From: a virus
Reading direction: 5' to 3' (one strand)
IMG/VR virus record: IMGVR_UViG_3300048927_000754
Coordinates: 1 to 47,977 of that record
DNA: 47,977 nucleotides
The notes below the pieces were generated by a model. It did no database searches and had not been told where the DNA came from. It was given only the letters and a program-made list of their open reading frames with translations. This document shows, piece by piece, positions 6,133-46,139 of the stretch. Position 1 is the stretch's first letter, and each line of letters begins with the position of its first letter. Made by a program: the position numbers and the translations under genes.

Positions 6133-9100
6133 CAGGTGGACTCCGCGACATTGCCGATGACCTGGAAGCGGAACGAGTCCACAGCGGTCTCAGGGGTACC
6201 TGGCAGCGTGGTGCGCGCCATCCAGACCGGCGCCAGCGCACCGATGGTGTTGAATCGCACTGCGTTGTTGGTGGCCCAGCCTGTACCCCAGCCGTCCCGG
6301 TCGATCACAAAATAGGGCAGCCCGGTGCGGGCGTTGATCGGTGCGCAGTCCTCAGTGGTGGCGCCGGTCAAGATCGTGCCGACCGTTTCGCCGCTGACCT
6401 CGAACTGGGTGGCATTGGTGAATCGAATCACCCACCGCTCGGTGATCGCATCGGCGTTCTTGACGCTGATTGGGTAGTCGGTGTCGTTGTAGGTCGCCGG
6501 CGCCGCAGCTCCGTTGACCACGTCGGTCCAGACGTTGATCCAGGTGTCCTGGTCGAACAGGTTCTGGACACGCGCTTGAAGGTCGAGGGAGCCATTTGCC
6601 TCGCCCAGCCGGAGCGCCGTACTGACCAGGGTCTCGCCAATGGGAAAATCGTGGGTCAGCCCGCTGTTGAGCTGGATCTCACCCGTGATCTGCACCGCAG
6701 CCACCAGGCGCCGATCTTCGATGCGCTCGCTGATCACGATGGGCAACGTGTAGCCCGTCAGATTCAACGGGTCGCTGAAGGTGAGCTTGCCCACGTCCAG
6801 GTCGTAGGTGTACCAGGCACTCAGCACAGGCGTGCCGGCGCTGTCGCGCACCTCAAGCTGGGCAACGCGGCCGCGGCCGAAGTTCACCACCTGGCCCGGC
6901 GCCGGCGCCGGCACGCTGTGGGCCTGGGTGTGATGAATCAGCACCGTTTGGCCCGACTTGTAGGCTGGCACTCGCCCATCGCTGGGAAGTCGGATTGAGT
7001 CCAGGCCAATGACCACCGACGATAGTGGGATCGATCGATAGACCACCGCGCCGAAGTAGATGCTGCTGGGCAGCATCAACATGGGCATCCAGACCTGATT
7101 GCCGACCACCTTGTCGGGGTCATACCACGGCTCGGACTCATTGTCCGCCGCGAGGACGTAGCGGCCGAAGCGCAAATCAACGACGCCGGTTTCCCAGTCA
7201 ACTGACCCAGCCATGAAATCGCCGGTGATCGCGCCGTTGACGTCAGTGGTGCCGACCACCTGCACCCCGCCCAGCGTGGTGGCACGCACGGTAAAGCTGC
7301 CCGAGCGAAGGGGAGCGCCGGTGGTGCGGAAGAAGACCGCGTCAGTTCCGGGATCGAAGATCTGGGTGAGGAGCGAGGTCACGGTGACCGCATTACTGCC
7401 GCCCGCGGCCCACTGCGTGATCGTGGCCAGGCCGCCGGCATAGTCGATGGATCCAGCAAACGTGCCGGCGCCAGTGACCGGATCGACCCCGAAATAAAGC
7501 GCGCCGCTGCGATCGACATAAGTTCTACCGCGGAAATCAAACCGCACGCTGCCCGGCACGATCGCATCCATTACCGTGGGCGTGAGGTCCAAGGAGACCG
7601 CCGGCAATGCCAAGGTGTCGGACGCCGCCGTTGAGGCGCTGCCAGCCAACTGCGACTGCACGCTGATCTGGGTGCCGCCGCTGTAGGTGGCCGTCGCCGC
7701 CATGCGCGTAGTGCCCTGGTAGCGATAGACCCCGCCGTAATCGCTGTAGGTGGGCATCGGGAAGTTCTGCACCGCAATGTTGCCGACCTTCACACTCACC
7801 GAACCGCTGGCATAACTGATGGTGCCGATCGTGTCTGTCTGCGCACGGCTTCCCACGCTGACCAGCTTGATGTTTCCCTGGCCGTCGTCCTGGGCAATCA
7901 TTCGCGCCGCAACGCTCACCGAGCCCAAGTCCGGGTCCATCGGGGTAATTGTGTCCAGCCACTCCAGGCGCAGGCTGCCTGCCGACACCGGAACATTGGC
8001 GACCGTGAACGAAACGATGCCACTGGAATCGGGAAGCGGTGTAACCGACGCGCTGGTCTGAGCGCCCCAGGCGTATTCGCAAAGCAGTCCGCTGCCGGCA
8101 TCGGGAAGCGTGGGCGGTCGGAGGGTGACCTGACCACTGGAATAGACCACTGAACCGCGCGCCGCGCCGCCCAGCATCAGCACCCCGGCGCCGTTGTCGG
8201 TCGCCACCACGTCCGCGTTATTCACGCGGAACTTGATCGTCAGGCTCCCCGGCACCACGCCCTCATGCGCCAGGAGGAAGTCCAGCGCTGGCACCTGGAT
8301 ATTGGTGTCGCCATCACGCCGGTCAGCGATCACGCCGGTTCCCCAGCTGGACAACAGTGAGCTGTTGAGATCCGGAAGCGCGCCGAGGGTCACGATGACA
8401 CTGCCCGTTGCGTAATTGATGGATCCGCCACCCTGCCCGGGGTTGCCGGTCAGCTGGCCGGTCCCGTTGTCGGTCAACCGGATCCACCTACCCAAAGCCC
8501 TGTAATCCACCACGATCGTGCCGGGTGCGGGCAATGGTTGAAGCTGCAGCACGAAGTTGTAGCCCTGATTGGCCAGCGTGATGTCGACCTTGCGGGTGAA
8601 GCCCTGCGTGGCGATCGGGCCAGCAGGCGTTGCGCTGATCGAGATGGCTGAGGATGTCCCCGTGGTGTGGGTCACCGATACCGCCCCGGTCTGATAGTCC
8701 ACGCTGCCTGCCCAGGGCGACACCGCCGGCGAGGAGAGGTTCCCGTCGCCGTCGTCGGTGAGCGTCACGCCATCGGTGGTGACAGAGACGCTGCCGCGGA
8801 CCAGCGGATTGCCCAAGTACCGCGTGACCGGCTCACCGGGCGAAAACGATTCGGAGTACGACGTCGAAAGGCTCCCCACTGCACCTGCGCGCACGTAACT
8901 GATAGAGCCCAGGCCCGCCAACTGGTCAACGACAGGCGTCTCCGCAGTGGTGGCCGGAACGATCTGCACATACGGCGTGCCCAGCTGCACGCTCAGGTCG
9001 CCAACTTCGGCCGCGGCCGTGGTGCGCTTGACGCTGTAGTAATTCGCAGACTCCACCGTGTTGGTCGAATAGACCCGAGTCGGCGGCTTGGAGCTGGTGT

Positions 9101-9728
9101 AGCGGTTGGGCTCCTGCCCATAGAAGTCATAGAGCAGTGCAGTCACCAGTTCGATGATCACAACGTCGCGATCGAACTGACCGGACTCGTCGAAGAATGA
9201 CTGCGTGGTGCGCGACAGCACGCTCTTGACCCGGATGTATTGCTCGACCTGTGGGTATCCCGCGCCCGTCGTCGAAAGGCAGAGATTGTCGTTCACATCC
9301 GGCGTCGGCGCGTCCGGCATGCAATAGAAGCTGGCGGCCTGCTGCCCAGTGAAATGGTTGCCCAACAGGACGAACCGGCTCTCCACACCCTTGGTGACGT
9401 AGCGCTCCACCACATCGCGCGCGTCGCTGCGCACGTCGCTATAGCTGCCCGTGGCGAACATGGCCATGCTCACTTGGCTGTCGGTCGGCGGGTTGACGAT
9501 GACGCCGATAGCGTCCTTCAACACGTCAACCGTAGGCGTGTCCACGTGGACGAACATCTTGCGCAGGGTGGTCCTGCCGGTGGTGCGTTCTTCATCGCCG
9601 ATGTCAGGGAACAGGTTGTTCATCTGACCGTCGACAATCTGCGTGGCCACCATGCGGCCGCCGCCGTCGTCGTTGTCGGTGAGGCGCTGCGACTGGCGCA
9701 GTTTGATATCTGTTGCGGAAATGGTCAT
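6132..9728 (-). CDS. Large repeat-containing tail protein
   Basis: 1198 aa. Residues about 310-865 hold six divergent copies of a 45-60 residue beta module. Each copy begins with a G-S/T-V/L-x-V strand, passes through a D-D/N-G-x-G turn, and ends with G-S/T-I/V-D/N-Y-x-T/S-G-x-V, for example GSVDYQTGAVSV, GSINYATGSVIV, GSVVYSSGQVTL and GSIDYAGGLATI. A related module may lie near 945-990. N- and C-terminal regions differ from the repeats. Size, repeats and position after the tape measure suggest an elongated tail-tip or central-fibre protein, possibly involved in adsorption. No catalytic motif or signal peptide is visible. Confidence 0.7.
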   Translation of the reverse strand: MTISATDIKLRQSQRLTDNDDGGGRMVATQIVDGQMNNLFPDIGDEERTTGRTTLRKMFVHVDTPTVDVLKDAIGVIVNPPTDSQVSMAMFATGSYSDVRSDARDVVERYVTKGVESRFVLLGNHFTGQQAASFYCMPDAPTPDVNDNLCLSTTGAGYPQVEQYIRVKSVLSRTTQSFFDESGQFDRDVVIIELVTALLYDFYGQEPNRYTSSKPPTRVYSTNTVESANYYSVKRTTAAAEVGDLSVQLGTPYVQIVPATTAETPVVDQLAGLGSISYVRAGAVGSLSTSYSESFSPGEPVTRYLGNPLVRGSVSVTTDGVTLTDDGDGNLSSPAVSPWAGSVDYQTGAVSVTHTTGTSSAISISATPAGPIATQGFTRKVDITLANQGYNFVLQLQPLPAPGTIVVDYRALGRWIRLTDNGTGQLTGNPGQGGGSINYATGSVIVTLGALPDLNSSLLSSWGTGVIADRRDGDTNIQVPALDFLLAHEGVVPGSLTIKFRVNNADVVATDNGAGVLMLGGAARGSVVYSSGQVTLRPPTLPDAGSGLLCEYAWGAQTSASVTPLPDSSGIVSFTVANVPVSAGSLRLEWLDTITPMDPDLGSVSVAARMIAQDDGQGNIKLVSVGSRAQTDTIGTISYASGSVSVKVGNIAVQNFPMPTYSDYGGVYRYQGTTRMAATATYSGGTQISVQSQLAGSASTAASDTLALPAVSLDLTPTVMDAIVPGSVRFDFRGRTYVDRSGALYFGVDPVTGAGTFAGSIDYAGGLATITQWAAGGSNAVTVTSLLTQIFDPGTDAVFFRTTGAPLRSGSFTVRATTLGGVQVVGTTDVNGAITGDFMAGSVDWETGVVDLRFGRYVLAADNESEPWYDPDKVVGNQVWMPMLMLPSSIYFGAVVYRSIPLSSVVIGLDSIRLPSDGRVPAYKSGQTVLIHHTQAHSVPAPAPGQVVNFGRGRVAQLEVRDSAGTPVLSAWYTYDLDVGKLTFSDPLNLTGYTLPIVISERIEDRRLVAAVQITGEIQLNSGLTHDFPIGETLVSTALRLGEANGSLDLQARVQNLFDQDTWINVWTDVVNGAAAPATYNDTDYPISVKNADAITERWVIRFTNATQFEVSGETVGTILTGATTEDCAPINARTGLPYFVIDRDGWGTGWATNNAVRFNTIGALAPVWMARTTLPGTPETAVDSFRFQVIGNVAEST

Positions 9729-9729
9729 G

Positions 9730-10149
9730 TCAGGCCGTCTGTAGGCGAAGGGTCACGGAGTAGTAGTCGGTGTCGAGCTGGGGCCAGATGCGCTTGATTT
9801 GGCGGGCGTCCAGGCCGGCGCCATCGGTGCGGCGCCAGATCACGTCGAATGAGCGCGTCCCGCTGTTGTGGGCGGGCATCGTCAGCGTCATGGGCGCGCT
9901 GCCGGCGACGGCCTCCATGGATTGGAGCAACCGCAGGACTTCAAGGGTCACAACGCCGTACCACGCGTCGCCGTCCTGCCCGGACTCCAGCGTGATGGGA
10001 CGTCCGGCCTGCAGCGCGCCCTCTTGGACGATGCGGGCGCCCGTCAGGCTGGTCCGGACGTTCTGTCCAACTTTCCACGCGGTGAACTCGTCGCTCCAGT
10101 CCAAGTCGCCAGGAAGCTCAACACCGGCAAGGATGATCACTTCGCTCAT
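9730..10149 (-). CDS. Tail protein downstream of tape measure
   Basis: 139 aa. It starts 4 bases inside the end of the tape-measure gene (ATGA-type overlap) and ends 2 bases before the 1198-aa gene. The sequence is beta-rich with WYGVVTLEVLRLL and a YYSVTLRLQTA end. In lambda the equivalent place holds gpM/gpL tail-tip proteins. I cannot show homology to either, so the assignment is positional. Confidence 0.65.
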   Translation of the reverse strand: MSEVIILAGVELPGDLDWSDEFTAWKVGQNVRTSLTGARIVQEGALQAGRPITLESGQDGDAWYGVVTLEVLRLLQSMEAVAGSAPMTLTMPAHNSGTRSFDVIWRRTDGAGLDARQIKRIWPQLDTDYYSVTLRLQTA

Positions 10150-13100
10150 CGTTGCACTCGCACGTTGCTGACAGCACGGCTCCTCGCCACCAGCTGAAGT
10201 ACACGACTGGCGATGGGCCCGGACAAACGCTCGACCATTTCCAGATCCGCCGAGGACAGCCCACTGGCCGCGGACCGACCTGAGGCCTGGAACTCAATCA
10301 CCAGTCGATCTTCTGCCCCGCTTTTCTTCGAGGAAGAAACGGTGGGTGACGAAGGCTTGCTGCTGGCTGCATCCTGGACCGCCTTAGTGGACTCGATGCG
10401 CTGCTTGTCTTCCTGAAGCCGTTGCTCGGCCGCGGCCTTTTCCTTCTGCCTGCGCGCATCTTGTGCAGCATCGAGCCGCTTCTCAGCTTGAAGCAGCTCG
10501 TCGATCTCGTTGTCGCCCACCAAGGCGAACTTGCTCCTCAGCTCCTTCCTGCGGTCGGCATCTTCGTCGAACGCTGCAGTCTGATCCCTGATTTTCTGCA
10601 TCTCTGCGCCCAATGCCTTCCTCTGATCGGTAAGCGCATTGAGAACGTTTGCGAATCGCTGCAGGATCGATCCACCACCCTTGTAGTCACCAATGGCATT
10701 AAACATGTCCATCCAGGCTTCGGAGACTTGGCCAATGCCAAACGACAAGCCCTTCGCGGCTTCCGCGGTGTCGATCATGCTTTTGCTGGTGTCGATATAG
10801 GCACTCGACGCACCGTCAGCGGCCGCACCAGCCGATTCCGCAGACCTTGCAACGCTGTCGAGCGCGGCACTGCTTTCTGCTGAAGCTCGCTTGATCTGCT
10901 CGCTGGCGCCACGGCTCCGGCGGCCCATGTCGTCGAATCCGTCGTTGACGCGGTAGATCGCGTCCAGAACCAGCAGCTCATTGTCCACGCGCGACTTGGC
11001 CGTACTGTCGCTGTCTGCTACGGCGGCCCTTGCCGTTCGGCCGTAGGCGTCTAGCGCGCGGCGCACGTCCTCAATGCTGGCTTTGCCGGACGCGGCTCCC
11101 TGCCGGATCGCATCGAATGCAGCTTTGGCTGCGTCACGCGCGGCGTTGAGGGAGGACTGCGATTGGATGCCAAGCGCGCTGAACGAATCGGTGAGCGGAT
11201 CCATCGCGGCCGTGATACCGGCGATCCGCGCTTCAAGTGCAGCCGCCGAGCGCTCGGCCTGGTCGAAACCGATCTTCCCTTGCTCGCCCGCCGTCTTGAG
11301 TACCGCGCCCAAGTTCTGGGCATCCTCCGACGTGGACACCCTTGCCAGGGCCGCATTGAACGCGGCCTCGACTTGCTGACCGGTCGAATTGGCGTTCTCG
11401 ACGATCGCTCCGAATGAGGCCACTGCGTCGCGGCCTGCGACGGTGAACCTGGTGCCCATCCGGTCCGCAGCCACGCCCAGCTTGTCCAGCGCTGCGTACA
11501 GCGTGGTATCTAGTACTGCAGCTGCCTCGGCTGGACCCTTGTTAAATGCTTCGAATGCAGCGGTCGCTGCGCCTTGAAACCTCTGCAGTTCCTCGCCACT
11601 GAGCTGCTGGAGTGCAGCCAGAAGACCATCACGTACGTTTCGGTCCGCACCGGCAGATTCCTCGCTGACCTTGGAGAGGCCAAGTGCAACATCTCCCAGC
11701 TTCACGCTCTCTGCGAAATTAAGGCCTTCGAACAGCTTCTTGATCGACTCAGTCGCGTTCTTGCTGTCGCCTTCGATCCCCTTGAGGTCGTCCACGACTT
11801 TCTGAGCCGCTGGCGAAATCTTCCCACTCAGGGCATCAGCAGCAAGTTTCGCCCCGGCAGCAACTGATGTATATCCGTCGTGAACCAGCTTGAGTTTGGC
11901 AGGGAGCTGACCGAGCTGGTTGAGCTGATCCTGCGTGGCCAGGCCTAGCTCCTTCTGGCGAAGGAGATATCCGTATTGCGCGACTAGGTACTGCTGAAGC
12001 CCTTTGAGCCGCTGCTGGTAGGCCGCGGTCTCTTCCGCGCCCAACTTGGAGACCTGCTCAGCGGTGAGAACGAGCTCGTCACGATATTTTGCGTATTCAG
12101 AAGCCTGCGTCGCCTTTGCCAAGGCCTCTGCGCGCATCTGCTCGCGCATGGCCGCCTGGACCCTTGTGAGCTCCCGCGCAGCCTCGCTCACCGATCCCAA
12201 GGCTTCGCCGAGCTTCGAAGCACCCGCAATTGCCAAGTCGAGTCCGATCAGTGCAATGCCGATTCGGATATTGGTGGGAATGGACTTCAGCGCGCGCCCT
12301 GCCCGCGTTGCCCGACTGGCTGTCGTGTCCAGGGCGCCAGAGGCGCTCAGTGCGTCGCGCGCGAGGCTCGTCCACTGGAGGCGTACAGCATTCAGCTCCA
12401 CCGCCCACTTCGCCAATTTCAGCGCCGCGTAACCGCGAGCAATTGCCGTCAGCGCAGTGGTGTGCTGTGCGAGGAACGCTGCAGAGCCTTTGACAGCGTT
12501 GGCAATGCCGGTGATGGCATCGGAAACCTGCTTGGCGTAGCGCGCCAGGTCACCATTGGCGGTCATCCGGTCGATCGCCGCGCCCACCTCGCGCAGCTGC
12601 TGCTTGAAATATTCGAGCGCCCCGCTGTCCGCGATTTGTCGTCCAAAGCCCTGGACGCGGTCCAGAAAGGACGTCCACAGGCGCGATAGGGTGTTGATGC
12701 CGTCGGCTGCCGCCCCACTGGAGGACTTGGCCATTTCTTCCAGCAGCTCGCGGATCACATCCCTGCCCAGCTGGCCTGCCGAAGACAGTCGGTTGAGCTC
12801 GGTGACGTTCTTGCCGGTGGCCTTCGACAGCAGATCCCACACCGGGACCCCACGCTCGACCAGCTGCATGATCTCCTCGCCCTGCAGCTTCTGCTTGGAC
12901 CATGCCTGGCCAACCGCAAGGATGATCCCGTCCAGGCTCTCCATAGAGCCGCCCAACAGGGCGTTCTGGTCGATCAGTCCCTTTAACGTGCCATCCAGCG
13001 GCTCCAGACCGAAGGTCTTCAGCTTGAGTGCTGACTGCAGCATCTGATCGAACTGCGCGCCGGAATCGCGCGCCAGCTGCCGGATCTGGTCGAAAGCCTG

Positions 13101-26617: not shown

Positions 26618-26691
26618 TGGAGCGGGCTGCCAGGATCGAACTGGCGTGGACGGCTTGGAAGGCCGCAGCCTGACCGCTCGGCCAAGCCCGC
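26618..26691 (-). tRNA. tRNA-Gly (TCC)
   Basis: A 74-base cloverleaf: acceptor GCGGGCT/AGCCCGC with discriminator T and encoded CCA, D arm GCC...GGC, anticodon stem GCGGC/GCCGT with loop CTTCCAA (anticodon TCC), T arm GCCAG-TTCGATC-CTGGC. It lies 3 bases downstream of the Met-type tRNA and 48 bases upstream of the endolysin, on the late strand. Confidence 0.95.
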
Positions 26692-26694
26692 GAT

Positions 26695-26771
26695 TGGTAG
26701 CGACGGCAGGACTCGAACCTGCAACCTCCGGGTTATGAGCCCGGCGAGCTGCCAAATTGCTCTACGCCGCA
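26695..26771 (-). tRNA. tRNA with CAT anticodon (Met or lysidine-type Ile)
   Basis: A 77-base cloverleaf with D arm GAGC...GCTC, anticodon stem CCGGG/CCCGG and loop CTCATAA, T arm GCAGG-TTCGAGT-CCTGC, and encoded ACCA end. Acceptor pairs 2-7 are good (one G-U), while position 1 opposite 72 is T-T. A 1-72 mismatch recalls initiator tRNAs. CAT could also be Ile2 read through lysidine. Sequence alone does not settle which. Confidence 0.9.
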
Positions 26772-26953: not shown

Positions 26954-27703
26954 CTAAGCTGGGATCTCTGCCCACACCATGTTGATAGCGACGACGGTCT
27001 GGCTCAACAAGTCTTGTGCTTCATCCAGCGTGTAGAAGGCTTCCGGATGCTGCGTGGGATTTCGGAAGTGAACTCTCATTCCATCCAAGTGGCTGAGCAG
27101 CTTTTCGGAAGGCTTCGGAGCTCTTTTCGCCCTGAGCTGGGCTGTCATCGGGCCCCACATCGGCTTGTCCATCCGGTCGCGCTTCTTAAACGCATAGTAG
27201 AGGCATCGAACACACTCCTCGAGACAACGCATTAGATGAAATGCACTTGCCGTTGGTTGACTGAGCGCTATCAATCGTGCAGCCAGCCTGAAGTCCTTCT
27301 TTGCATTCAGCGACAACCGATCCCATACACCTTTAGCTAAAAGGTCTTCAGCAGAGCTAGTGAGAGACTCGAGTGGAAATCTCTTCTTGGTCATGATGTA
27401 TGCACGCCTTAGCTGAATTTCAGCATCAAGAGTGACGTCAAGCTTTGATACCGCTTTCTTTATAGCGGTAGAAAGATCCTCAGGAACGCTCTTTTCGTCA
27501 TGCTCTTCAAGCCGATCTCGTACCTTGCGAAGATCAGATGCCGCCAGCGTAGTTACCGGCAAATCGAGCTCGGTAAGTTTGTCAAAAAACTTGTCAATAT
27601 CTATTATTGCCTGCGTTATAGGCTTACCCAAAAAAGAATTGTTTAGCAAAATGTAATAATTGAATCCAAATGCATAATAGCGGTAGATCGAATTGCTTTT
27701 CAT
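26954..27703 (-). CDS. HEPN-motif protein, probable phage accessory (moron) gene
   Basis: 249 aa. The C-terminal half (residues 135-245) has the HEPN pattern: a helix HLMRCLEECVRCLYYAF, then VHFRNPTQHPEAF containing R214-N215-x3-H219, the R-N-x3-H catalytic motif, and a final helix. HEPN domains with this motif are usually RNases in toxin, defence or abortive-infection proteins. The N-terminal half is unrecognised. Base composition is visibly more AT-rich than neighbouring genes. It has its own GAGGGG ribosome binding site and a possible -10 (TTTAAT, 27723-27728). Its role could be superinfection exclusion, but this is inference. Confidence 0.75.
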   Translation of the reverse strand: MKSNSIYRYYAFGFNYYILLNNSFLGKPITQAIIDIDKFFDKLTELDLPVTTLAASDLRKVRDRLEEHDEKSVPEDLSTAIKKAVSKLDVTLDAEIQLRRAYIMTKKRFPLESLTSSAEDLLAKGVWDRLSLNAKKDFRLAARLIALSQPTASAFHLMRCLEECVRCLYYAFKKRDRMDKPMWGPMTAQLRAKRAPKPSEKLLSHLDGMRVHFRNPTQHPEAFYTLDEAQDLLSQTVVAINMVWAEIPA

Positions 27704-28614: not shown

Positions 28615-28790
28615 GCTGTCCTTTCTCCTGGCCAGCTAAGCCCGGCGCGGCGGTATTCCTCGCGCAGCTCCACTAGCACCATTGCGTCGATCCACACTAT
28701 TTCCTTACCCGACCTCGTTCGTACCACCTGAGGAAGTGAGCGCTCATAACCGGGGTTGGGGTCTTTCTTCGGCTCCGGCGGGCGCTTCAT
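28611..28790 (-). CDS. Small hypothetical protein
   Basis: 59 aa from ATG 28790 (MKRPPEPKKDPNPGYERSL...), which overlaps the methyltransferase stop at 28787 (ATGA). Basic Pro-rich N-terminus, then a short alpha/beta segment (GKEIVWIDAMVLVELREEYRRAGL). Not recognised. Confidence 0.6.
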   Translation of the reverse strand: MKRPPEPKKDPNPGYERSLPQVVRTRSGKEIVWIDAMVLVELREEYRRAGLSWPGERTA

Positions 28791-29587
28791 GCGGCCTGCC
28801 TGATGGCCCACGTTCCCGGGGCTGTTCTGTATGCGATGCGCTGCAGGGTCTGGCGGACCTTCTCCTGCCAGTAGCGGTTGGTGGTGGGCCGGCTACCCTC
28901 CACCTCGCGGTAGATCTGGGGCAGCGTGGCCGTGCCGCCCAGCGCTTCCATGGCGGCACGCGTGACCGCGGCCCACACTGACCGCTCGCCCTGGGCCAGC
29001 AGCGCCCGATACCGGGCCTGCAGGCGTGCCACGGCCGCCGCCTCATGGTAGAGCGCGAAGCCGACCAGGCCACGCTTGCGGCCCTTGGTGAGGCGCGCGA
29101 AGCACAGCGGCGCCATGAGCCTGGGGAACACGTTGCGGGGCAGCATGTCCTGCTGCATGTGCCAGCGCTGCGCCAACCTGTCGACGGTGGACGATGTCTG
29201 GAAGGCGAATGCCGGCAGGATGAAGCCCACGCCGCCCTCATCGGGCAGCAGCTCCCACGCGCGATCGAGGAACTGCTGGATCGTCTGCTGACGGAAAGGA
29301 GGATTGCCCAACACCAGCGTAGGCGAGAACGGCAGCTCCGCCGTGGCGAAGTCGCCCACCACCACGGGCCGGCCGCTGCATTGCCTGGCGCGCTCCGCCA
29401 TGTCTGGGTCTATCTCTACGCCGACCACCTGCACGTGGTCCGGCAGCACGCGCAGGAATGCACCATCCCCGCACGATGGTTCGACCAGGCGATCGCACAT
29501 GCCCAGGTCAGGGTAGTAGCGCTCCACCAGGGCCTGCGCTACCCATTCTGGGGTGAAGAATTGCCCAAGCTCGCGACGCTGCTTCAT
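28787..29587 (-). CDS. NPPF-type DNA adenine methyltransferase
   Basis: 266 aa from ATG 29587, which overlaps the upstream stop. The start is supported by the MKQRRELGQFFTPEWVA opening, typical of N6-adenine methyltransferases. SAM-binding motif EPSCGDGAFL (36-45), acidic VGVEIDP (56-62), catalytic NPPF (95-98), and GFILPAFAF afterwards. The C-terminal 100 residues could contain the recognition part. It is the fourth gene of a DNA-modification cluster and has no partner endonuclease nearby, so protection from host restriction is likely. Confidence 0.88.
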   Translation of the reverse strand: MKQRRELGQFFTPEWVAQALVERYYPDLGMCDRLVEPSCGDGAFLRVLPDHVQVVGVEIDPDMAERARQCSGRPVVVGDFATAELPFSPTLVLGNPPFRQQTIQQFLDRAWELLPDEGGVGFILPAFAFQTSSTVDRLAQRWHMQQDMLPRNVFPRLMAPLCFARLTKGRKRGLVGFALYHEAAAVARLQARYRALLAQGERSVWAAVTRAAMEALGGTATLPQIYREVEGSRPTTNRYWQEKVRQTLQRIAYRTAPGTWAIRQAA

Positions 29588-30048
29588 GGGCGACACTCCA
29601 AGATGTGCAACTTGCGGGTCGCAGTCGTGCCGCACCTGCTCCAGCCCGCTGACTTGAAGCAGAAACCGGGATTGGGGCTGGCCACCCGCTTTGCATTGAC
29701 GTAGGTATAAAGGCGTTCGCCCGGCCATCTGGTCCAGGCAAGGCCCATCGCTGCTGTGATCAAGTCGCTCGAGCGACCGTAGGACGAACCCTCGTTCCGA
29801 AACACGGCGCAGTTCACGCCCTCCTGATGGTCCAAGCTCTTGAACTTGCGCCAGCAAAACAGGGCCCGAGCATCAGGCGTCAACAGAACCATGCGGAAGC
29901 CAGGACCTACAAACCGCCGGCGGTCTCTCCCATCTCTATAAGGCAGTGCGCTGTAGTGCCGCCCAAAAAGTGTTAGCGCGGCCAGGTGGCCGTCGCGAAT
30001 CTCCGTCCAAGGCGCCTCGCCCAGCAGAAATGGCTGCACCGCGTTCAT
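29584..30048 (-). CDS. Possible GNAT-fold (Mom-like) protein
   Basis: 154 aa. Conserved-looking core: LTLFGRHYSALPYRD, FVGPGFRMVLLTPDARALFCWRKF, CAVFRNEG, then LYTYVNAKRVASPNPGFCFKSAGWSRCG, whose ending resembles the N-P-x-x-x-Y/F-x-x-x-G-W/F segment of acyltransferases. Mom-like GNAT proteins of phages modify DNA bases after or with methyltransferases. The place between two adenine methyltransferases supports this, but I cannot identify it with certainty. It overlaps both neighbours by 4 bases. Confidence 0.5.
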   Translation of the reverse strand: MNAVQPFLLGEAPWTEIRDGHLAALTLFGRHYSALPYRDGRDRRRFVGPGFRMVLLTPDARALFCWRKFKSLDHQEGVNCAVFRNEGSSYGRSSDLITAAMGLAWTRWPGERLYTYVNAKRVASPNPGFCFKSAGWSRCGTTATRKLHILECRP

Positions 30049-30896
30049 GCAACCACCGCCAGCTGCAGCGACGCCTGCGAGATTCCACGCTCAGCCACCG
30101 GGTTCATCCACAAGCTCTCGATTCGGGGCCTCGCGCCATCGGCCAGCGCCTGGCGGTCGACCCGGTGCCAGTTGCGGTACAGGCGCTCGTACAGCGGAGA
30201 CGGATAGCCAGACAGCACCACGCCGCCGGCGAGCGTCTGCAGGAACTCGGCGAGCTCTTCATGCTGCTCGTCGGACATCTCGTGCTTGTAGGACTTCCGG
30301 TGGTCGTTATGGTTGACCCTCAGCGACCTGGTGCTGTGCACGTACGGCGGATCCACGTAATGCAGGGTGGTCGGCCTGTCGTGGTGCGCCATCGCTGCGA
30401 GGGCGTCGCGGTTCTCGATCACCACGCCTTGCAGCCGTCCCACGACCGCCTCAAACGCTGCCGGGTAGTTCAGCCAATCCATCGCTGGCGTGGTGCCGGA
30501 CTTGGATGATGTGCTGCGGAAGCTCGATTTCTCGCCGCACACGGCCGCGCTTCCGAAACCCTGGAAGCTCCGTACGACCATTCTGCGGGCCCGCTCCAGT
30601 GGCTCCTTGCTGGGCTTGTAGCTGCGTTCGAACTCCACGCGGCTGAATGGCGTCAGCTCCAGCGCGCGGCGCAGCTGCTCCCCTTGATCGCGTGCGACCA
30701 GGAACAGGTTGACCACCTCGTCGTCCAGGTCGTTGTAGACCTCAGCGTAGGCGCGCGGCTTGCGCAGGAGGACCGAGCCCCCACCGCCGAACGGCTCGAC
30801 ATAGGTATGGTGCGGGCCAAAGTTCTCGATGATCCACGGCGCCAGCATCCATTTCCCGCCGTGGTACCGGACCAACGGTCGACGAGGCGCATTCAT
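30045..30896 (-). CDS. Dam-like N6-adenine DNA methyltransferase (D12 class)
   Basis: 283 aa. The N-terminal YHGGKWMLAPWII and EPFGGGGSVLL (34-44) match the D12/Dam SAM-binding region, LDDEVVNLFLVAR follows, and the catalytic DPPY is at 182-185 (LHYVDPPYVHST). This order fits the Dam family. It transfers methyl to adenine in a short site, possibly GATC. Overlaps both neighbours by 4 bases. No matching endonuclease is nearby. Confidence 0.93.
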   Translation of the reverse strand: MNAPRRPLVRYHGGKWMLAPWIIENFGPHHTYVEPFGGGGSVLLRKPRAYAEVYNDLDDEVVNLFLVARDQGEQLRRALELTPFSRVEFERSYKPSKEPLERARRMVVRSFQGFGSAAVCGEKSSFRSTSSKSGTTPAMDWLNYPAAFEAVVGRLQGVVIENRDALAAMAHHDRPTTLHYVDPPYVHSTRSLRVNHNDHRKSYKHEMSDEQHEELAEFLQTLAGGVVLSGYPSPLYERLYRNWHRVDRQALADGARPRIESLWMNPVAERGISQASLQLAVVA

Positions 30897-32677
30897 GGAA
30901 CCACCTGCGCGGGCAGGGTGAGGGCCAGGGCCACATCCCGCACCCAGATGGATGTACTGCCCAAGGCGAAGGTCTGCCCGGTCCAGGCCAGCAGCAGCGT
31001 GCGGCCCATCTCTTCCGCAATCGCGCGCGCCGCGGCCGGCGGCACTGCGTTGCCGATGCGCTCGCGCCAGGCCTGGTCAGACAGCCCGTCCAGCTCCAGC
31101 TTTTCCTCGGGGTCGACCAGTGACTGCAGCGCGGCCAGCTCTAGCGTGGTGAACGGCCGGTGCCAGGTTCCGTCCTCGGCAGTGATCACGCACACAAGCT
31201 TGTCGGTACCGGCGGGCAGCCGCGGGTCGGCGACGCTAAAGCGGCCGTTGTCGTGGCCAGCAGCCGAGCTTACTGCGCCGCAGCTGGCGTCCCAGGCATT
31301 GACCCCATAGTGGCCGTTGGTCAGGTAGGCATCTCCCTTCGTGCGCATGTTGGCCGGACGCGGATCCTGCACCGCGAACGCGCCCTGCCCGGTCGTGCTA
31401 CCGCTGATCACCGTGCGGCTGGCATCGCCCCAGCTGGTGACCGGGTACTTGGCGAAAGCCGGACCGTCGCGGCGGGGATCCTGCACGCACTGGCCGGTGC
31501 TGTGCGCGCTGGTGACGGCGCCTGCAGCACCACCCCAGCGCACGATCCGGTATTCGTTGTTGTGCTTGGCCGGGCCGCGGTGCCGCGGGTCGGCGACGCT
31601 GAAAGTCCCCTGCCCTGGCGACTTCACCCCGATGATGGCGCCGGCGGTGTCCTCCATGCGCAGCACGCCGTATTGCTGGTACTGGGCCGCACCCTCTGCA
31701 GCGCGCGGGTCAGCGACCGAGAAGGCGCCATTTGTGGGACCGCTGTTGCCGGCGATGGTGCCGGTCGGCTCGTCCCAGCGCTTAACCCCGCAGAACCCGC
31801 CGTGGTATTGGGGCACGATCAGGTAATCGCGCAGGCAGCCGTCTTCCACCTCCAGGCGGTTGAGGCTGCGCCAGTCACTGCCGGCCTCGACGAACGCCAA
31901 GCGCACCCAGGTCTTCCACTGCAGGGCCGGGATGCGATGCATGGGCCCAGCGCGCGCCACGTCGCCCGGCATCGCCATGCGGCCCAGTACCTCACCCACG
32001 CTGCGCAGCGGCCTGCGCACAGGCTCGTACAGGAACGGCGGCACCTTCTCGACGTGGCGTGCCACCAGCAGGAAGCGCTTTCGACTCTGGGCAAGGCCGC
32101 CGAGCTCGCCGCAGTCGTGCGTGGTCTCGTTGACCACGTAGCCATAGGCGCGCAGCAGGCCGGTGATCTGGTCCAGCAGGTGACGGCCGCGGCTGGCGAT
32201 GCGCGGTACGTTCTCGAACACGAACATCTCTACCGGGTCGTCCCGGTACGCCTCGAGCACCAGGAACATGCCCCGCAGGGTCAGGCGGTTCAGGGCCTGG
32301 TACTTGTTCGTCTGGCTTTTGGTCTCCGACATCAGGCCGCTGAAGCCCTTGCACGGCGCAGACAGGAACACGATGTGCGGGCGCTCGTTGTTGAACGCTC
32401 GGTGGATATCGGTGGTGGTCGCCTCCTTCCAGCTGGCCGGCGGCTCGCTGCCATGGAATGCGCGGTACTGGTCGCGGTCGAACAGGTCCAGGACCGTGCC
32501 ACGCGAGCCGGTCAGGCGATCGAAGTCGCGGATCGCTGCCGGATCGCTGTCGATGCCACCGAGGCAGCGAAACCGCGCGCGCGCCGCGCCGATATCCGGC
32601 CGTGCCTGGTTGAAACCCTTACTTCCGGCGCCGAGGCCGGAGAAGATGCTGGCGTGGCGAATCTCGAACTCATGCAT
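30893..32677 (-). CDS. DNA (cytosine-5) methyltransferase with repeat-built target region
   Basis: 594 aa from ATG 32677. Motif I ASIFSGLGAGSKGF (9-22), motif IV SAPCKGFSG with catalytic Cys109, motif VI FENVP near 155, motif VIII QSRKRFLLVA, and C-terminal IGNAVPP. The usual PCQ is PCK here. The target-recognition region is built of five imperfect repeats with W-x2-A and GxFSVADPR cores (31215-31790). It overlaps the preceding gene by 8 bases and the Dam-like gene by 4. Probably protects phage DNA from restriction. Confidence 0.92.
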   Translation of the reverse strand: MHEFEIRHASIFSGLGAGSKGFNQARPDIGAARARFRCLGGIDSDPAAIRDFDRLTGSRGTVLDLFDRDQYRAFHGSEPPASWKEATTTDIHRAFNNERPHIVFLSAPCKGFSGLMSETKSQTNKYQALNRLTLRGMFLVLEAYRDDPVEMFVFENVPRIASRGRHLLDQITGLLRAYGYVVNETTHDCGELGGLAQSRKRFLLVARHVEKVPPFLYEPVRRPLRSVGEVLGRMAMPGDVARAGPMHRIPALQWKTWVRLAFVEAGSDWRSLNRLEVEDGCLRDYLIVPQYHGGFCGVKRWDEPTGTIAGNSGPTNGAFSVADPRAAEGAAQYQQYGVLRMEDTAGAIIGVKSPGQGTFSVADPRHRGPAKHNNEYRIVRWGGAAGAVTSAHSTGQCVQDPRRDGPAFAKYPVTSWGDASRTVISGSTTGQGAFAVQDPRPANMRTKGDAYLTNGHYGVNAWDASCGAVSSAAGHDNGRFSVADPRLPAGTDKLVCVITAEDGTWHRPFTTLELAALQSLVDPEEKLELDGLSDQAWRERIGNAVPPAAARAIAEEMGRTLLLAWTGQTFALGSTSIWVRDVALALTLPAQVVP

Positions 32678-33386
32678 GTGCGGGGGCCTCCGCTGGCGCG
32701 TGCTGGGCCTTCCATTCGTCATAGGCGCGCACCGCGTGGGCGACCGCGTACAGGCGCCACGTCATGTGGTACGTGTAATCCTCGAGGCGACCCGCGCACT
32801 CCCACATGTCAGTGAAGGCGAAGTCCTCGAAGGCCTGGCCGTGGTCGCTCCACGCCGCGGGTTCGAACGCGTCAGCTGACACGATCGCTTCCTGCGCGTT
32901 GTCGCCGTGCACGTCTTCCTCAATCTGCTCCCAGAGCGCCTGCGCTAGCGCATGGCCCTGGTCCATTCCGTCCAGGTCTTGTCCGGACATGTAGTCCTCG
33001 AAGCGCTCGCGGAGCAGCGGCGCTAGTAGATCCTGGTCGTAAGCCCGGGCCGGGCCATCGTTGGCGACCAACTTCTCGCACCAGTAGCTGCGGTTGATGT
33101 ACAGCCCGTGGGCTCCTTCGTGCATATGGTCCGGCTGACGGAAGAACTCGAACATGTCCGGCAGGCGGCTAAACACCGAGGCGCCCATGTCGCCGGTCAT
33201 GGCCAGATTGCCCGGCCAGGTGACGATGTCGAAGTGGTAGTTGTTCGTACCGGGCCGCTTGAACCGCAGGTGGCGGTGCATGCCCTGGTCCAGGACCACC
33301 TCCATCTCGTGGGTGGCGATGTCCTTGCGGAACTGGGTGAGGATCTTGGGTTCCGGCTTGGCGGCCGGCGCGGTCGTGTCATTCAT
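32670..33386 (-). CDS. Conserved phage protein of unknown function
   Basis: 238 aa from ATG 33386; an ATG at 33399 is an equal alternative and nearer the upstream stop. Segment HRHLRFKRPGTNNYHFDIVTWPGNL is followed by FSRLPDMFEFFR. Acidic second half with several Trp/Tyr (YTYHMTWRLYAVAHAVRAYDEW). No enzyme motif recognised. Located in the early operon between nuclease and methylase genes. Confidence 0.65.
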   Translation of the reverse strand: MNDTTAPAAKPEPKILTQFRKDIATHEMEVVLDQGMHRHLRFKRPGTNNYHFDIVTWPGNLAMTGDMGASVFSRLPDMFEFFRQPDHMHEGAHGLYINRSYWCEKLVANDGPARAYDQDLLAPLLRERFEDYMSGQDLDGMDQGHALAQALWEQIEEDVHGDNAQEAIVSADAFEPAAWSDHGQAFEDFAFTDMWECAGRLEDYTYHMTWRLYAVAHAVRAYDEWKAQHAPAEAPAHA

Positions 33387-33400
33387 GTCGGGAGTCCATG

Positions 33401-33661
33401 TCATGCAGTGATGGGCTTCTGACGCGCCTCGCGAAATGCGGGCTCGTCGAAGGTGAAACCGGCAGCGCTGTTGACGCATGCCGGGAATGCTTTGGGGGTG
33501 GGGAGGCCGCAGACGGCCAGGCGGCCGACGCTTGCGAACAGGCGCGCGCGGCGCGTGCAGTAGCAGCAGCCGCCATCTGCTTGGACCAGCGCGCGCACGT
33601 CGCGTCCCTGGGACCGGCTGCAGGTGCGCTCGGGGCGCGTGAGGAAGTCGGCCGCGCTCAA
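33401..33661 (-). CDS. Small Cys-containing hypothetical protein
   Basis: 86 aa. A CCYCTRR cluster in the middle, with further Cys residues (C51, C62 region), might bind zinc or simply be a redox-prone patch. Basic, with no membrane segment. Overlaps the nuclease gene by 4 bases. Not recognised. Confidence 0.55.
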   Translation of the reverse strand: MSAADFLTRPERTCSRSQGRDVRALVQADGGCCYCTRRARLFASVGRLAVCGLPTPKAFPACVNSAAGFTFDEPAFREARQKPITA

Positions 33662-34143
33662 CCGAAGTCCTCCACCTTCCAGCTGCCGCCCTTCTCGCGC
33701 TGAATGGCCAGGAAGCGGAACGGGTACATCGCCGCGGCCACCTTGATTTTGACCCTGGCGTCTTCCTCCCAGTGGCCCTTGACCTCATGCGCTTCCAACT
33801 CGCCGTTGGCCAGCTGCACGAAGAAATCCACCGTCAGCGTGGTCTTCTCGGCCAGCTGCAGCTTGATGGCCTCGAACTTCCACCACAGCACCTCGCCGGC
33901 GGCGATGCGCGCGTCCAGCTGCTGGGCGTAGGCGGCCTCGGTCTTGTTCATCTCGCCGGCCACGTGGCGCGGCCGTGCGCGCGCCACGGTCTTGCCGGTG
34001 GCCATATCGCCGCCCTGCTTGGCGGCCGGCGCAGGCTTGTACGGCCGCGGCGCTGCGGCAGTTCCCTGGGCGTCCACCAGGCGGCGCATGCCTGGCGGCA
34101 TCTCGGCGGTGGATCCGTACCGCAACGCGCGCTTCCCGGTCAT
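33658..34143 (-). CDS. PD-(D/E)XK-type endonuclease, DUF1064-like
   Basis: 161 aa. After a basic Pro/Ala-rich N-terminus, MNKTEAAYAQQLDARIAAGEVLWWKFE begins the nuclease-like domain. TLTVDFFV and LEAHEVKGHW give the D...E-x-K catalytic set, and VKIKVAAAMYPFRFLAI closes the fold. This is the VRR-NUC/DUF1064 pattern often found where phages encode a Holliday-junction resolvase or RusA-like function. It overlaps both neighbours by 4 bases. Confidence 0.78.
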   Translation of the reverse strand: MTGKRALRYGSTAEMPPGMRRLVDAQGTAAAPRPYKPAPAAKQGGDMATGKTVARARPRHVAGEMNKTEAAYAQQLDARIAAGEVLWWKFEAIKLQLAEKTTLTVDFFVQLANGELEAHEVKGHWEEDARVKIKVAAAMYPFRFLAIQREKGGSWKVEDFG

Positions 34144-43185: not shown

Positions 43186-43397
43186 CCCGGATTTGCACCG
43201 GGTGCGAACGCGCCCTGCCCCTCGACCATCCTGCCAAGGCAAAGCATCTCTGCGCCGAGTGCAAGCGTGACGACAAGCGCCTGCGCGCGCCGCTCCGACC
43301 GGTGACGGTCGACCAGGCGCTGATCGAGATCAACAACGCCGCTGCGCTCTGGCATGGACCCGCCAGCGTGGGCGCACCACTAAGGGCTGCCGCATGA
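43182..43397 (+). CDS. Small zinc-finger protein
   Basis: 71 aa from ATG 43182 (ATGA overlap). C-x2-C (CTGC) and C-x2-C (CAEC) pairs separated by about 18 residues, typical of a zinc ribbon, followed by a basic KRDDKRLRAP segment and a helix. Likely nucleic-acid or protein binding. Precedes the HerA-like ATPase by a 4-base overlap. Confidence 0.65.
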   Translation: MTRICTGCERALPLDHPAKAKHLCAECKRDDKRLRAPLRPVTVDQALIEINNAAALWHGPASVGAPLRAAA

Positions 43398-45025
43398 ATC
43401 TGTCGGATTCGCTGAATATCGATCTCCCGGTGCTGCTGGAGACCCGCCTGCTTGTCCAGGCCAACAGCGGCGGCGGTAAGTCTTGGGCGCTGCGCCGGCT
43501 GCTGGAGCAGACCGCGCCTGCAGTGCAACAGTTGATCATCGACCCCGAGGGCGAGTTCGCCACGCTGCGCGAGCGCTTCGACTACGTGATCGCCGCGGCG
43601 CACGACGGCGACGCCGTGGCCAGCCCGCAAACGGCGGCGCTGCTGGCGCGCCGGCTGCTGGAGAGCGGCGTCAGTGCGGTGCTGGACATCTATGACCTCA
43701 AAGCGCATGACCGGCAGCTGTTCGTGCAACGGTTCCTGGATGCCCTGGTGAACGCGCCGCGGAAGCTATGGCACCCAGTGCTGCTGGTGCTGGATGAAGC
43801 GCACGTCTTCTGCCCTCAGGCCGGCAGCGCGCCGGCGGCGCAGGCGGTGATCGACGTGGCCACGCGCGGCCGCAAGCGCGGGCTATGCCTGGTGCCCGCC
43901 ACGCAGCGCCTGTCCAAGCTGCATAAGGACGTGGCCGCCGAGATGTTGAACAAGCTGATCGGCCGCACCGGCTTAGACCTGGACGTGAAGCGGGCCGCCG
44001 ACGAACTGGGCATGGGATCGCGCGAGGCGCTGCAGTCGCTGCGCACGCTGGACCCGGGCGAGTTCTACACCTTCGGGCCGGCGCTGAGCCGCTCACCTGA
44101 GCGCGTCACGATCGGCCCGGTGGTCACCAGCCATCCCAAGGCCGGTCAGCGCCTGATGAAGGCACCGCCGCCCGCCTCGGCCAAGGTCCGCGAGCAGCTG
44201 GCGAAGCTGGCCGATCTGCAGAAGGAAGCCCAAGACGAAGCGCGCACGTTGGAGCAGCTGCAGGGCCAGGTGATCGAGCTGACAGCCAAGTTGCGCCGCG
44301 CCGAAAAGCAGGCGGCCGCAGGCGGCATCACCGAGGACCAGGTGCTGGCGCGCATCCGCGCCGCGGTGGATGCCGTGCCGCGCGCCGCGGCGGCGGGCCC
44401 GGGCAACACTGGCGCGATTGCAAAGCTGGCACAGCAGATCCTCGGCCTGTGCGCGCCGTCGGCGAACGGCTCCCCTGCCCCGGCTGCAGCGCGCGGCGCC
44501 ACACCCGCCAAGCCAACGCTCGCGCCGTCGGCACCGTCCGCGGGGCTGACCGGGCCGGAGCAGCGGATTCTCGATGCGATCGCGTGGATGAATGCTATCG
44601 GCGTGCCGGTGCCCGAGCAGACAGCAGTGGCGTTCATGGCCGGCTACACCATCGGCGGCGGCGCCTGGAACAATCCGCGCGGGTCGCTGAGGACCAAGGG
44701 CCTGATCGAATACAGCGCCAGTGGTCTGTCCCTGACCGATGCCGGCCGGGCCGCCGCGCGTGCGCCGGCGGTCGCTCCCGGTACTGCGGCGCTGCACGGG
44801 GCCGTGATGAGTCGCCTACCGGGCCCCGAGCGGAAGCTGCTTGCCGTATTGCTCGAGGTCTTTCCCGCCGCGCTTTCCAATGACGACCTGGCAGCGCGCG
44901 CCGGATACGCGCCGAAGGGCGGCGCCTACAACAACCCGCGCGGGCGCCTGCGCTCGTTGGGCCTGATCGAGTACCAGGCCGGTCAGGTCGTGGCGCGGGA
45001 CATCCTGTTCCCGGAGGCTCACTGA
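43394..45025 (+). CDS. HerA/FtsK-type ATPase with two C-terminal winged-helix repeats
   Basis: 543 aa. Walker A QANSGGGKSW with GGGKS at 26-30, DPEGEF (51-56), Walker B LVLDEAHVF (131-139), and a VATRGRKRGLCLVPATQRLSKLHKDV segment typical of HerA/FtsK pump ATPases. A coiled coil (about 265-305) and a Pro/Ala linker lead to two repeats with AGYTIGGGAWNNPRGSLR and AGYAPKGGAYNNPRGRLR, each part of a winged helix. No NurA-type partner is adjacent. It may translocate or process DNA with the RdgC-FtsK-gamma protein. Confidence 0.88.
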   Translation: MNLSDSLNIDLPVLLETRLLVQANSGGGKSWALRRLLEQTAPAVQQLIIDPEGEFATLRERFDYVIAAAHDGDAVASPQTAALLARRLLESGVSAVLDIYDLKAHDRQLFVQRFLDALVNAPRKLWHPVLLVLDEAHVFCPQAGSAPAAQAVIDVATRGRKRGLCLVPATQRLSKLHKDVAAEMLNKLIGRTGLDLDVKRAADELGMGSREALQSLRTLDPGEFYTFGPALSRSPERVTIGPVVTSHPKAGQRLMKAPPPASAKVREQLAKLADLQKEAQDEARTLEQLQGQVIELTAKLRRAEKQAAAGGITEDQVLARIRAAVDAVPRAAAAGPGNTGAIAKLAQQILGLCAPSANGSPAPAAARGATPAKPTLAPSAPSAGLTGPEQRILDAIAWMNAIGVPVPEQTAVAFMAGYTIGGGAWNNPRGSLRTKGLIEYSASGLSLTDAGRAAARAPAVAPGTAALHGAVMSRLPGPERKLLAVLLEVFPAALSNDDLAARAGYAPKGGAYNNPRGRLRSLGLIEYQAGQVVARDILFPEAH

Positions 45026-45426
45026 TGGGCTGGAGCTACGGCTACGACCTGCGCCGGAAGCGCGACATCGGCTACGGCGTGCCGGCGTACTGCGATCACC
45101 CCGGTTGCGCCGCCGAGATCGATCGCGGCTTGACCCACGTGTGCGGTGGCCAGCCATATGGCGGTGAGTTCGGATGCGGCCTGTTCTTCTGCTCCGCCCA
45201 TCTTCATTTCGCCGGCGCGCGCCGCGAGCACGCGCAGGTCTGCATCCGGTGTCGCCACGGGCGTGCGTCTTTCGAACCGAACGACGCTGAGCACCCCGAG
45301 TGGATCGCCTGGAAGCTTACGGACGAAAGCTGGCAGGAATGGCGCGACAAGAACCCGGAGTGGGTTCAGGAACACAGCGGGAAAGGATGCCCGGGCCATG
45401 AGGAGAGCCCGTGTCCCAACACCTGA
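45025..45426 (+). CDS. Cys/His-rich zinc-binding hypothetical protein
   Basis: 133 aa. Cys/His pairs CDHPGC, CGG, CGLFFCSAH and CIRC make one or two probable zinc sites, in the style of a zinc ribbon or treble clef. Acidic C-terminus. Starts on the last base of the ATPase gene. Function unknown. Confidence 0.6.
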   Translation: MGWSYGYDLRRKRDIGYGVPAYCDHPGCAAEIDRGLTHVCGGQPYGGEFGCGLFFCSAHLHFAGARREHAQVCIRCRHGRASFEPNDAEHPEWIAWKLTDESWQEWRDKNPEWVQEHSGKGCPGHEESPCPNT

Positions 45427-46139
45427 CCATCGCCGACAGCGCCATCCGCCAGGACAGCGCCGGGCGCTTCAGCCTCAACGACCTGCACCGCGCCGCCGGC
45501 GGCGAGAAGCGGCATGGCCCGTCCTACTGGCTGGCCGCGCAGCAGACGCAGGAGCTGATCGACGAGCTGACCGATACCGGGATTCCGGTATCGATCCAGC
45601 GCGGCGGGACCGACCAAGGCACCTACGTGGCCAAGGAGCTGGTCTATGCATACGCCATGTGGATCAGCGCCGCCTTCCACCTGAAGGTGATCCGCGCCTA
45701 CGATGCGTTGGTGATGAACCGGCCGGATCCTCTCGCAGTGCTGTCAGATCCGGCGGCGTTGCGCGGACTGCTGGCCGGCTACGCCGAGCGCACCCAGGCT
45801 TTGGAGCACCAGGTCGCCGAGCAGGCACCGAAGGTACTGGCCCTGGACCGGATCGCCGACGCCCGCGGCGCGCTTTGCCTGACCGACGCCGCCAAGGCGC
45901 TGCAGATGCGCCTAAGCGACCTGATCTCTTGGATGCAGGAACACAGCTGGATCCACAAGCGCGCCGGCTCCGCCTGGTTGGCCTACCAGCCGCGCATCAC
46001 CAGCGGCGTGTTGGTGCATAAGGTCGTCGAGCGCGGCCAGGGTTCCGACGTGCGCGTATTCGGCCAGGTGCTGGTCACCCCGAAGGGACTGACCAAGCTG
46101 GCCGAGCTGCTACAGCGCGCGGAGGTCGCCGGTGCCTAA
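45411..46139 (+). CDS. KilA-N antirepressor
   Basis: 242 aa from GTG 45411. The N-terminal KilA-N domain (GRFSLNDLHRAAGGEKRHGPSYWL... TYVAKELVYAYAMWISAAFHLKVIRAYDAL) is followed by a C-terminal KilAC/Ant region (ALDRIADARGALCLTDAAKALQM... HKVVERGQGSDVRVFGQVLVTPKGLTKLAELL). Such proteins bind phage repressors and start lytic growth. This may be the induction route for the non-peptidase repressor. Confidence 0.88.
   Translation: MSQHLTIADSAIRQDSAGRFSLNDLHRAAGGEKRHGPSYWLAAQQTQELIDELTDTGIPVSIQRGGTDQGTYVAKELVYAYAMWISAAFHLKVIRAYDALVMNRPDPLAVLSDPAALRGLLAGYAERTQALEHQVAEQAPKVLALDRIADARGALCLTDAAKALQMRLSDLISWMQEHSWIHKRAGSAWLAYQPRITSGVLVHKVVERGQGSDVRVFGQVLVTPKGLTKLAELLQRAEVAGA

Follow-up and report, generated by a model that had tools for sequence, protein, structure and literature searches.

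The question raised by this locus is whether a small phage protein, encoded among three DNA methyltransferases (MTases), modifies DNA as Mom of phage Mu does, and what such a set of enzymes would do for the phage. Mu Mom produces N6-carbamoylmethyl adenine and depends on iron, and its unusual chemistry is still debated; to our knowledge, few enzymes attach bulky groups to finished DNA. The window, by which we mean the whole stretch of 47,977 nt that was analysed (G+C 65%), comes from the IMG/VR virus record IMGVR_UViG_3300048927_000754. It encodes a terminase (phrog_15), a portal, a head maturation protease and major head and tail proteins, together with an O-like replication initiator, a repressor-like regulator and an integrase, and by these predicted products it is of the temperate siphovirus type. 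Elsewhere in the window, adjacent genes for tRNA-Gly(TCC) and tRNA-Met(CAT) lie on the minus strand between the lysis region and the early operon (26618-26771), and a 249-aa HEPN-like protein is encoded on the same strand at 26954-27703 (PF05168, E=0.002, sub-threshold; RNPTQH motif). The gene for the latter is probably a recent arrival, because its G+C is 48% against 65% for the window. On the plus strand, a 543-aa HerA/FtsK-like ATPase (DUF87; 43394-45025) lies upstream of a KilA-N/ANT antirepressor (45411-46139).

The block itself is on the minus strand and consists, in transcription order, of genes for a C5-cytosine MTase (30893..32722), a D12-class, Dam-like adenine MTase with a DPPY motif (283 aa, 30045..30896), a GNAT-fold protein of 154 aa (29584..30048) and a small gamma-type N6A-like MTase with LGQFFTP and NPPF motifs (266 aa, 28787..29587). 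Neighbouring genes overlap by 4 bases, ATGA in every case (30893-30896, 30045-30048 and 29584-29587; the letters at the GNAT/NPPF junction are CCCATGAAG), and because of these overlaps the four genes are likely to be translationally coupled. A preliminary description had listed four overlapping genes, three of them for MTases of different classes, and all are indeed present, the MTases being recognised by Pfam and PHROGs. It had also seen no restriction endonuclease, in agreement with our scans, since no cognate restriction enzyme was recognised by Pfam, PHROGs, NCBIfam or PADLOC, either within the block or in the rest of the window proteins that were scanned. The nearest nuclease is a Holliday-junction-resolvase family protein (33658-34143, phrog_190). 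This exact combination of four genes was seen in the window only.

The two adenine-specific enzymes have relatives in Pseudomonas phage F116. The D12/DPPY protein matches PF02086 (E=3.3e-18) and phrog_56 (E=1.9e-66), carries the DPPY motif and is 69% identical to F116p11. The NPPF protein is 47% identical to F116p09, which GenBank lists as a DNA adenine methyltransferase; it has MTase_II/mad2 matches in PADLOC, and its Pfam matches are weak (a general methyltransferase model and a sub-threshold N6_Mtase). Its gene most likely starts at ATG 29587, which gives 266 aa and the ATGA overlap with the GNAT gene. A longer, TTG-start open reading frame (28787-29857, 356 aa) was rejected as unlikely because F116p09 starts where the internal ATG would lie, and alignments of such homologues to the window protein begin only just past that ATG. 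In F116, genes p11, p10 and p09 are likewise adjacent and overlapping and encode DPPY, C5 and NPPF MTases, the first and last homologous to those of the window; the C5 enzyme there belongs to another subfamily, and the F116 block has no GNAT gene.

The C5 enzyme of the window (PF00145, E=2.7e-13; phrog_32684, E=1.6e-105) has motifs IV, VI, VIII and X that can be read directly (SAPCKGFSG, FENV, QSRKRF and GNAVPP) and shares 60-65% identity with C5 MTases from temperate phages of Pseudomonas. It has 609 aa if translated from ATG 32722 and 594 aa from a second in-frame ATG at 32677, the position that the preliminary description gave as the end of the block. Between motifs VIII and IX (31223..31854, approximate limits), comparison with homologues delimits five repeats of about 40 residues, each ending in [VIA][AQ]DPR, that is ADPR or QDPR. 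We compared these repeats between the window protein and its homologues (L262-L341). Repeat number in 83 homologues ranges from 3 to 7 and is mostly 5, and the repeats sort into seven main families whose order varies, the arrangement in the window occurring most often. When proteins with flank identities of 90% or more were compared, 44 of 621 positional repeats fell below 50% identity, and in several such pairs the divergent repeat lies beside nearly identical neighbours; in the pair L316/L318, repeat 3 is at 32% and the other repeats are at 88-93%. For 19 of 42 swapped repeats, another protein whose flanks are less alike offers a match of at least 80%. These comparisons indicate that repeats are gained, lost and swapped among more than 80 homologues, and we infer that the array is likely a target-domain array in which each repeat would recognise one target.

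A comparable architecture is known from temperate Bacillus phages, whose multi-target C5 MTases show modular exchange (PMC12707154, citing Trautner et al. 1996). The multispecific enzymes of phi3T, rho11 and SPR carry, like that of the window, a variable-region array of target-domain-sized units that differ between related phages. The window kind differs in being a proteobacterial-type C5 MTase, found in phages related to Pseudomonas phages, and in the shared ADPR-type end motif of its repeats; the likeness noted here is one of architecture.

The 154-aa protein has no match in Pfam, NCBIfam or PADLOC and belongs to phrog_24928 (E=1e-23), a family of unknown function in PHROGs. An AlphaFold (AF2) model built from a 64-row alignment (A1) reached pLDDT 91.0 and pTM 0.84 (a single-sequence prediction, at pLDDT 34, was useless), and the order of its elements, b1-a1-b2-b3-b4-a3-b5-a4-b6-b7, is that of GNAT proteins. 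The best Foldseek matches in the PDB are the GNAT acyltransferases 1xeb, glyphosate N-acetyltransferase, SpeG and ElaA, at probability 1.00; the top BFVD matches, also at 1.00, are acyl/acetyltransferases, and many of the named viral matches are acetyltransferases. The protein is therefore, by its predicted structure, of GNAT fold. The preliminary description had looked to such a prediction for a GNAT fold and had placed the likeness at the C-terminus; the fold was found, and in the model it takes in the whole protein. The canonical CoA motif, Q/RxxGxG/A, is absent from the b4-a3 loop, which reads RNE(G/S)xxxSS in the family (alignment A1), and searching PDB sequences with the profile of the family gave only unconvincing matches. 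Eight residues (H31, Y32, W66, C80, F83, R84, E86 and S94) do not vary across the 111 distinct members compared. One pattern search found at least 189 relatives in IMG/VR, of which 80 were kept, and only 28 loci were found among the genomes of 84,980 bacterial and archaeal species; the GNAT family is therefore mainly a phage gene. More remote kin are gp60 of Paenibacillus phage Lily (36% identity to the window protein), followed directly by genes for an N6A MTase and then a C5 MTase, and a protein of Salinibacter phage M8CR30-2 (35%). The Lily, Salinibacter and Micromonospora members form a distant branch of the family tree.

Since the protein had been called Mom-like, we compared it with Mu Mom (PF25680, phrog_1384). 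Both are phage proteins of GNAT fold with a predicted role in DNA modification, and each has an invariant His-Tyr after helix 1, the two pairs being matched only in an alignment below significance. They differ in length, Mu Mom having 241 aa with a C-terminal extension that the window protein lacks, and in setting, the window family being met with in an operon of MTases or as an insert in a helicase-MTase. No match to PF25680 was obtained for the window protein or for five relatives tested, nor over 369 genomes with the PF25680 profile; the window protein did not match phrog_1384, and BLAST against Mu Mom returned nothing. HMM searches between the GNAT family and 14 diverse phage Moms were non-significant in both directions. 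An hhalign alignment of the two sets is co-linear and pairs both HYS motifs (P 0.03), with a score of 20.2, but a reversed Mom scored 21.1 and decoys with shuffled blocks reached 24.2, and because decoys score equally high we do not claim sequence homology to Mom.

The 154-aa protein could nevertheless be a genuine Mom that has diverged strongly and makes N6-carbamoylmethyl adenine, and the common fold class, the His-Tyr pair (H31-Y32 in 111 of 111 GNAT members, H58-Y59 in 14 of 14 Moms, paired in a non-significant alignment) and the co-linear hhalign alignment of the two HYS motifs speak in favour of this. We consider it quite improbable, given profile searches that fail in both directions, an hhalign score no better than that of decoys, and the state of other conserved Mom positions. 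The invariant b4 motif E-L-x-R is absent from the window protein. The near-invariant strand-5 aspartate D149 (SFAD) would correspond to N118, a position that is Asn in 62 and Asp in 30 of the 111 members, and at the position of the alpha-4 tyrosine (Y159) 107 of 111 members have Phe. The window protein thus appears to resemble Mom in predicted fold and one motif, its membership of the Mom family is not supported, and 'Mom' should give way to the label 'GNAT-fold family phrog_24928, predicted DNA modifier'. A relative of the window phage, the one in which locus L157 lies, encodes a further Mom-like candidate: a 145-aa protein beside lysis genes (L261:3407-3844, minus strand) matches PF25680 with E=1.8e-4, short of the curated cut-off.

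In seven distinct lineages (L017/L237, L031/L144, L033, L142, L236, L240 and L255), the GNAT domain lies inside an N6/N4-MTase protein. The C-terminal N6/N4 MTase was confirmed by PF01555 for L017, L031 and L033, and the N-terminal helicase was read from sequence, with helicase-like PADLOC matches (DrmD/BrxH). Identity of the inserted domains to that of the window is 57-58% in the three cases aligned and 67% for L255; an inserted copy, in a Luteibacter genome, comes closest to the window domain (67%). A helicase-MTase without the insert, in L003, aligns on both sides of the GNAT domain, the junction falling close to its residue 367, and L003 has a separate nearby gene for the GNAT domain. Because the seven inserted copies cluster on the tree (weak support, 85/33), with the window protein among the stand-alone members, the fusions may go back to a single event.

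Further, a helicase-MTase takes the place of the DPPY-GNAT-NPPF stretch in a relative. In a blastn comparison of the window with its relative L157, the two can be aligned up to the end of the C5 gene (78% DNA identity within it) and again at a 66-aa gene, not between. In the window this interval is a 2.2-kb stretch with the DPPY, GNAT and NPPF genes (28696..30908, minus strand), and in L157 a 2.7-kb stretch (9058-11767) with a helicase-N6/N4-MTase without insert. Because the domain is inserted in helicase-MTases and its locus is exchanged for one in L157, DNA is likely the substrate of the GNAT protein. A GNAT domain joined to a DNA enzyme is also seen in the Mom-endonuclease fusions of jumbo phages (PMC7824862), where the partner is a nuclease, whereas the window family has an MTase or a helicase-MTase in that role. 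One structural neighbour of our model (rank 14) is EST35_0196 of PA5oct, which is named homing endonuclease.

AcrVA5, an anti-CRISPR acetyltransferase, illustrates another course: the MTases would carry out ordinary methylation and the GNAT protein would acetylate a protein, be it one with which the host defends itself, by restriction or otherwise, or the MTase or helicase itself. AcrVA5 (6iuf) is among the Foldseek matches, the best PDB matches act on proteins or small molecules, and most family members are stand-alone genes. Against this, the domain occurs within a DNA helicase-N6/N4-MTase in seven lineages and the window gene in an ATGA-linked MTase operon, and we regard protein acetylation as unlikely, though the strongest of the alternatives weighed here. 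MTase genes lie within 1 kb of the GNAT gene in 18 of 80 loci, against 11 of 80 for a control gene; most members thus stand without a recognised MTase, and since this enrichment is mild relative to the control we do not use it as main evidence. At 80 other loci, those around C5 homologues, the gene next to the C5 homologue varies (a helicase-MTase, a DPPY MTase, a PAPS reductase or none recognised), and the GNAT gene is present at none of them. Genes for PAPS-reductase-like proteins, possibly a further DNA-modification partner, stand directly beside a GNAT or C5 MTase gene in L235, L310, L325 and phage Dobby (L151).

We therefore return to what the block would do. Methylases without an endonuclease had been thought to serve anti-restriction, and this is still the best reading, since the shuffling of C5 repeats and the wholesale replacement of the stretch among phages that are related are in keeping with an external target that changes. 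These same two features are harder to reconcile with methylases that mainly regulate phage gene expression, replication or packaging, a role that orphan phage MTases can have, as exemplified by P1 Dmt at pac sites (PMC12707154), and which we judge very unlikely here. Our preferred explanation, which we hold to be reasonably probable, is that this temperate siphovirus carries, in the block, a co-translated cassette for anti-restriction, which includes a GNAT base modifier working like Mom and belonging to a separate GNAT family. On induction, the products of the block would mark phage DNA at many sequences ahead of packaging: the C5 enzyme would methylate several targets, one for each swappable repeat of about 40 aa, the DPPY and NPPF enzymes would methylate adenines, and the GNAT protein would acylate, or otherwise modify, an exocyclic base amine. 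The combined marks would disguise the DNA from bacterial restriction enzymes. The group added by the GNAT protein may be one so far undescribed.

More tentatively, and with somewhat more doubt than conviction, we propose that phrog_24928 is a second, Mom-independent GNAT lineage that hypermodifies DNA bases, acting beside or inside helicase-N6/N4-MTases, with a product so far undescribed. If this is true, a large phage family, with at least 189 members in IMG/VR, would provide a separate route to DNA hypermodification, marked by the GNAT fold, the invariant His-Tyr and the insertion into helicase-MTases. The shuffling C5 repeats, for their part, suggest that phages outside Bacillus also set one methylase against several restriction enzymes.
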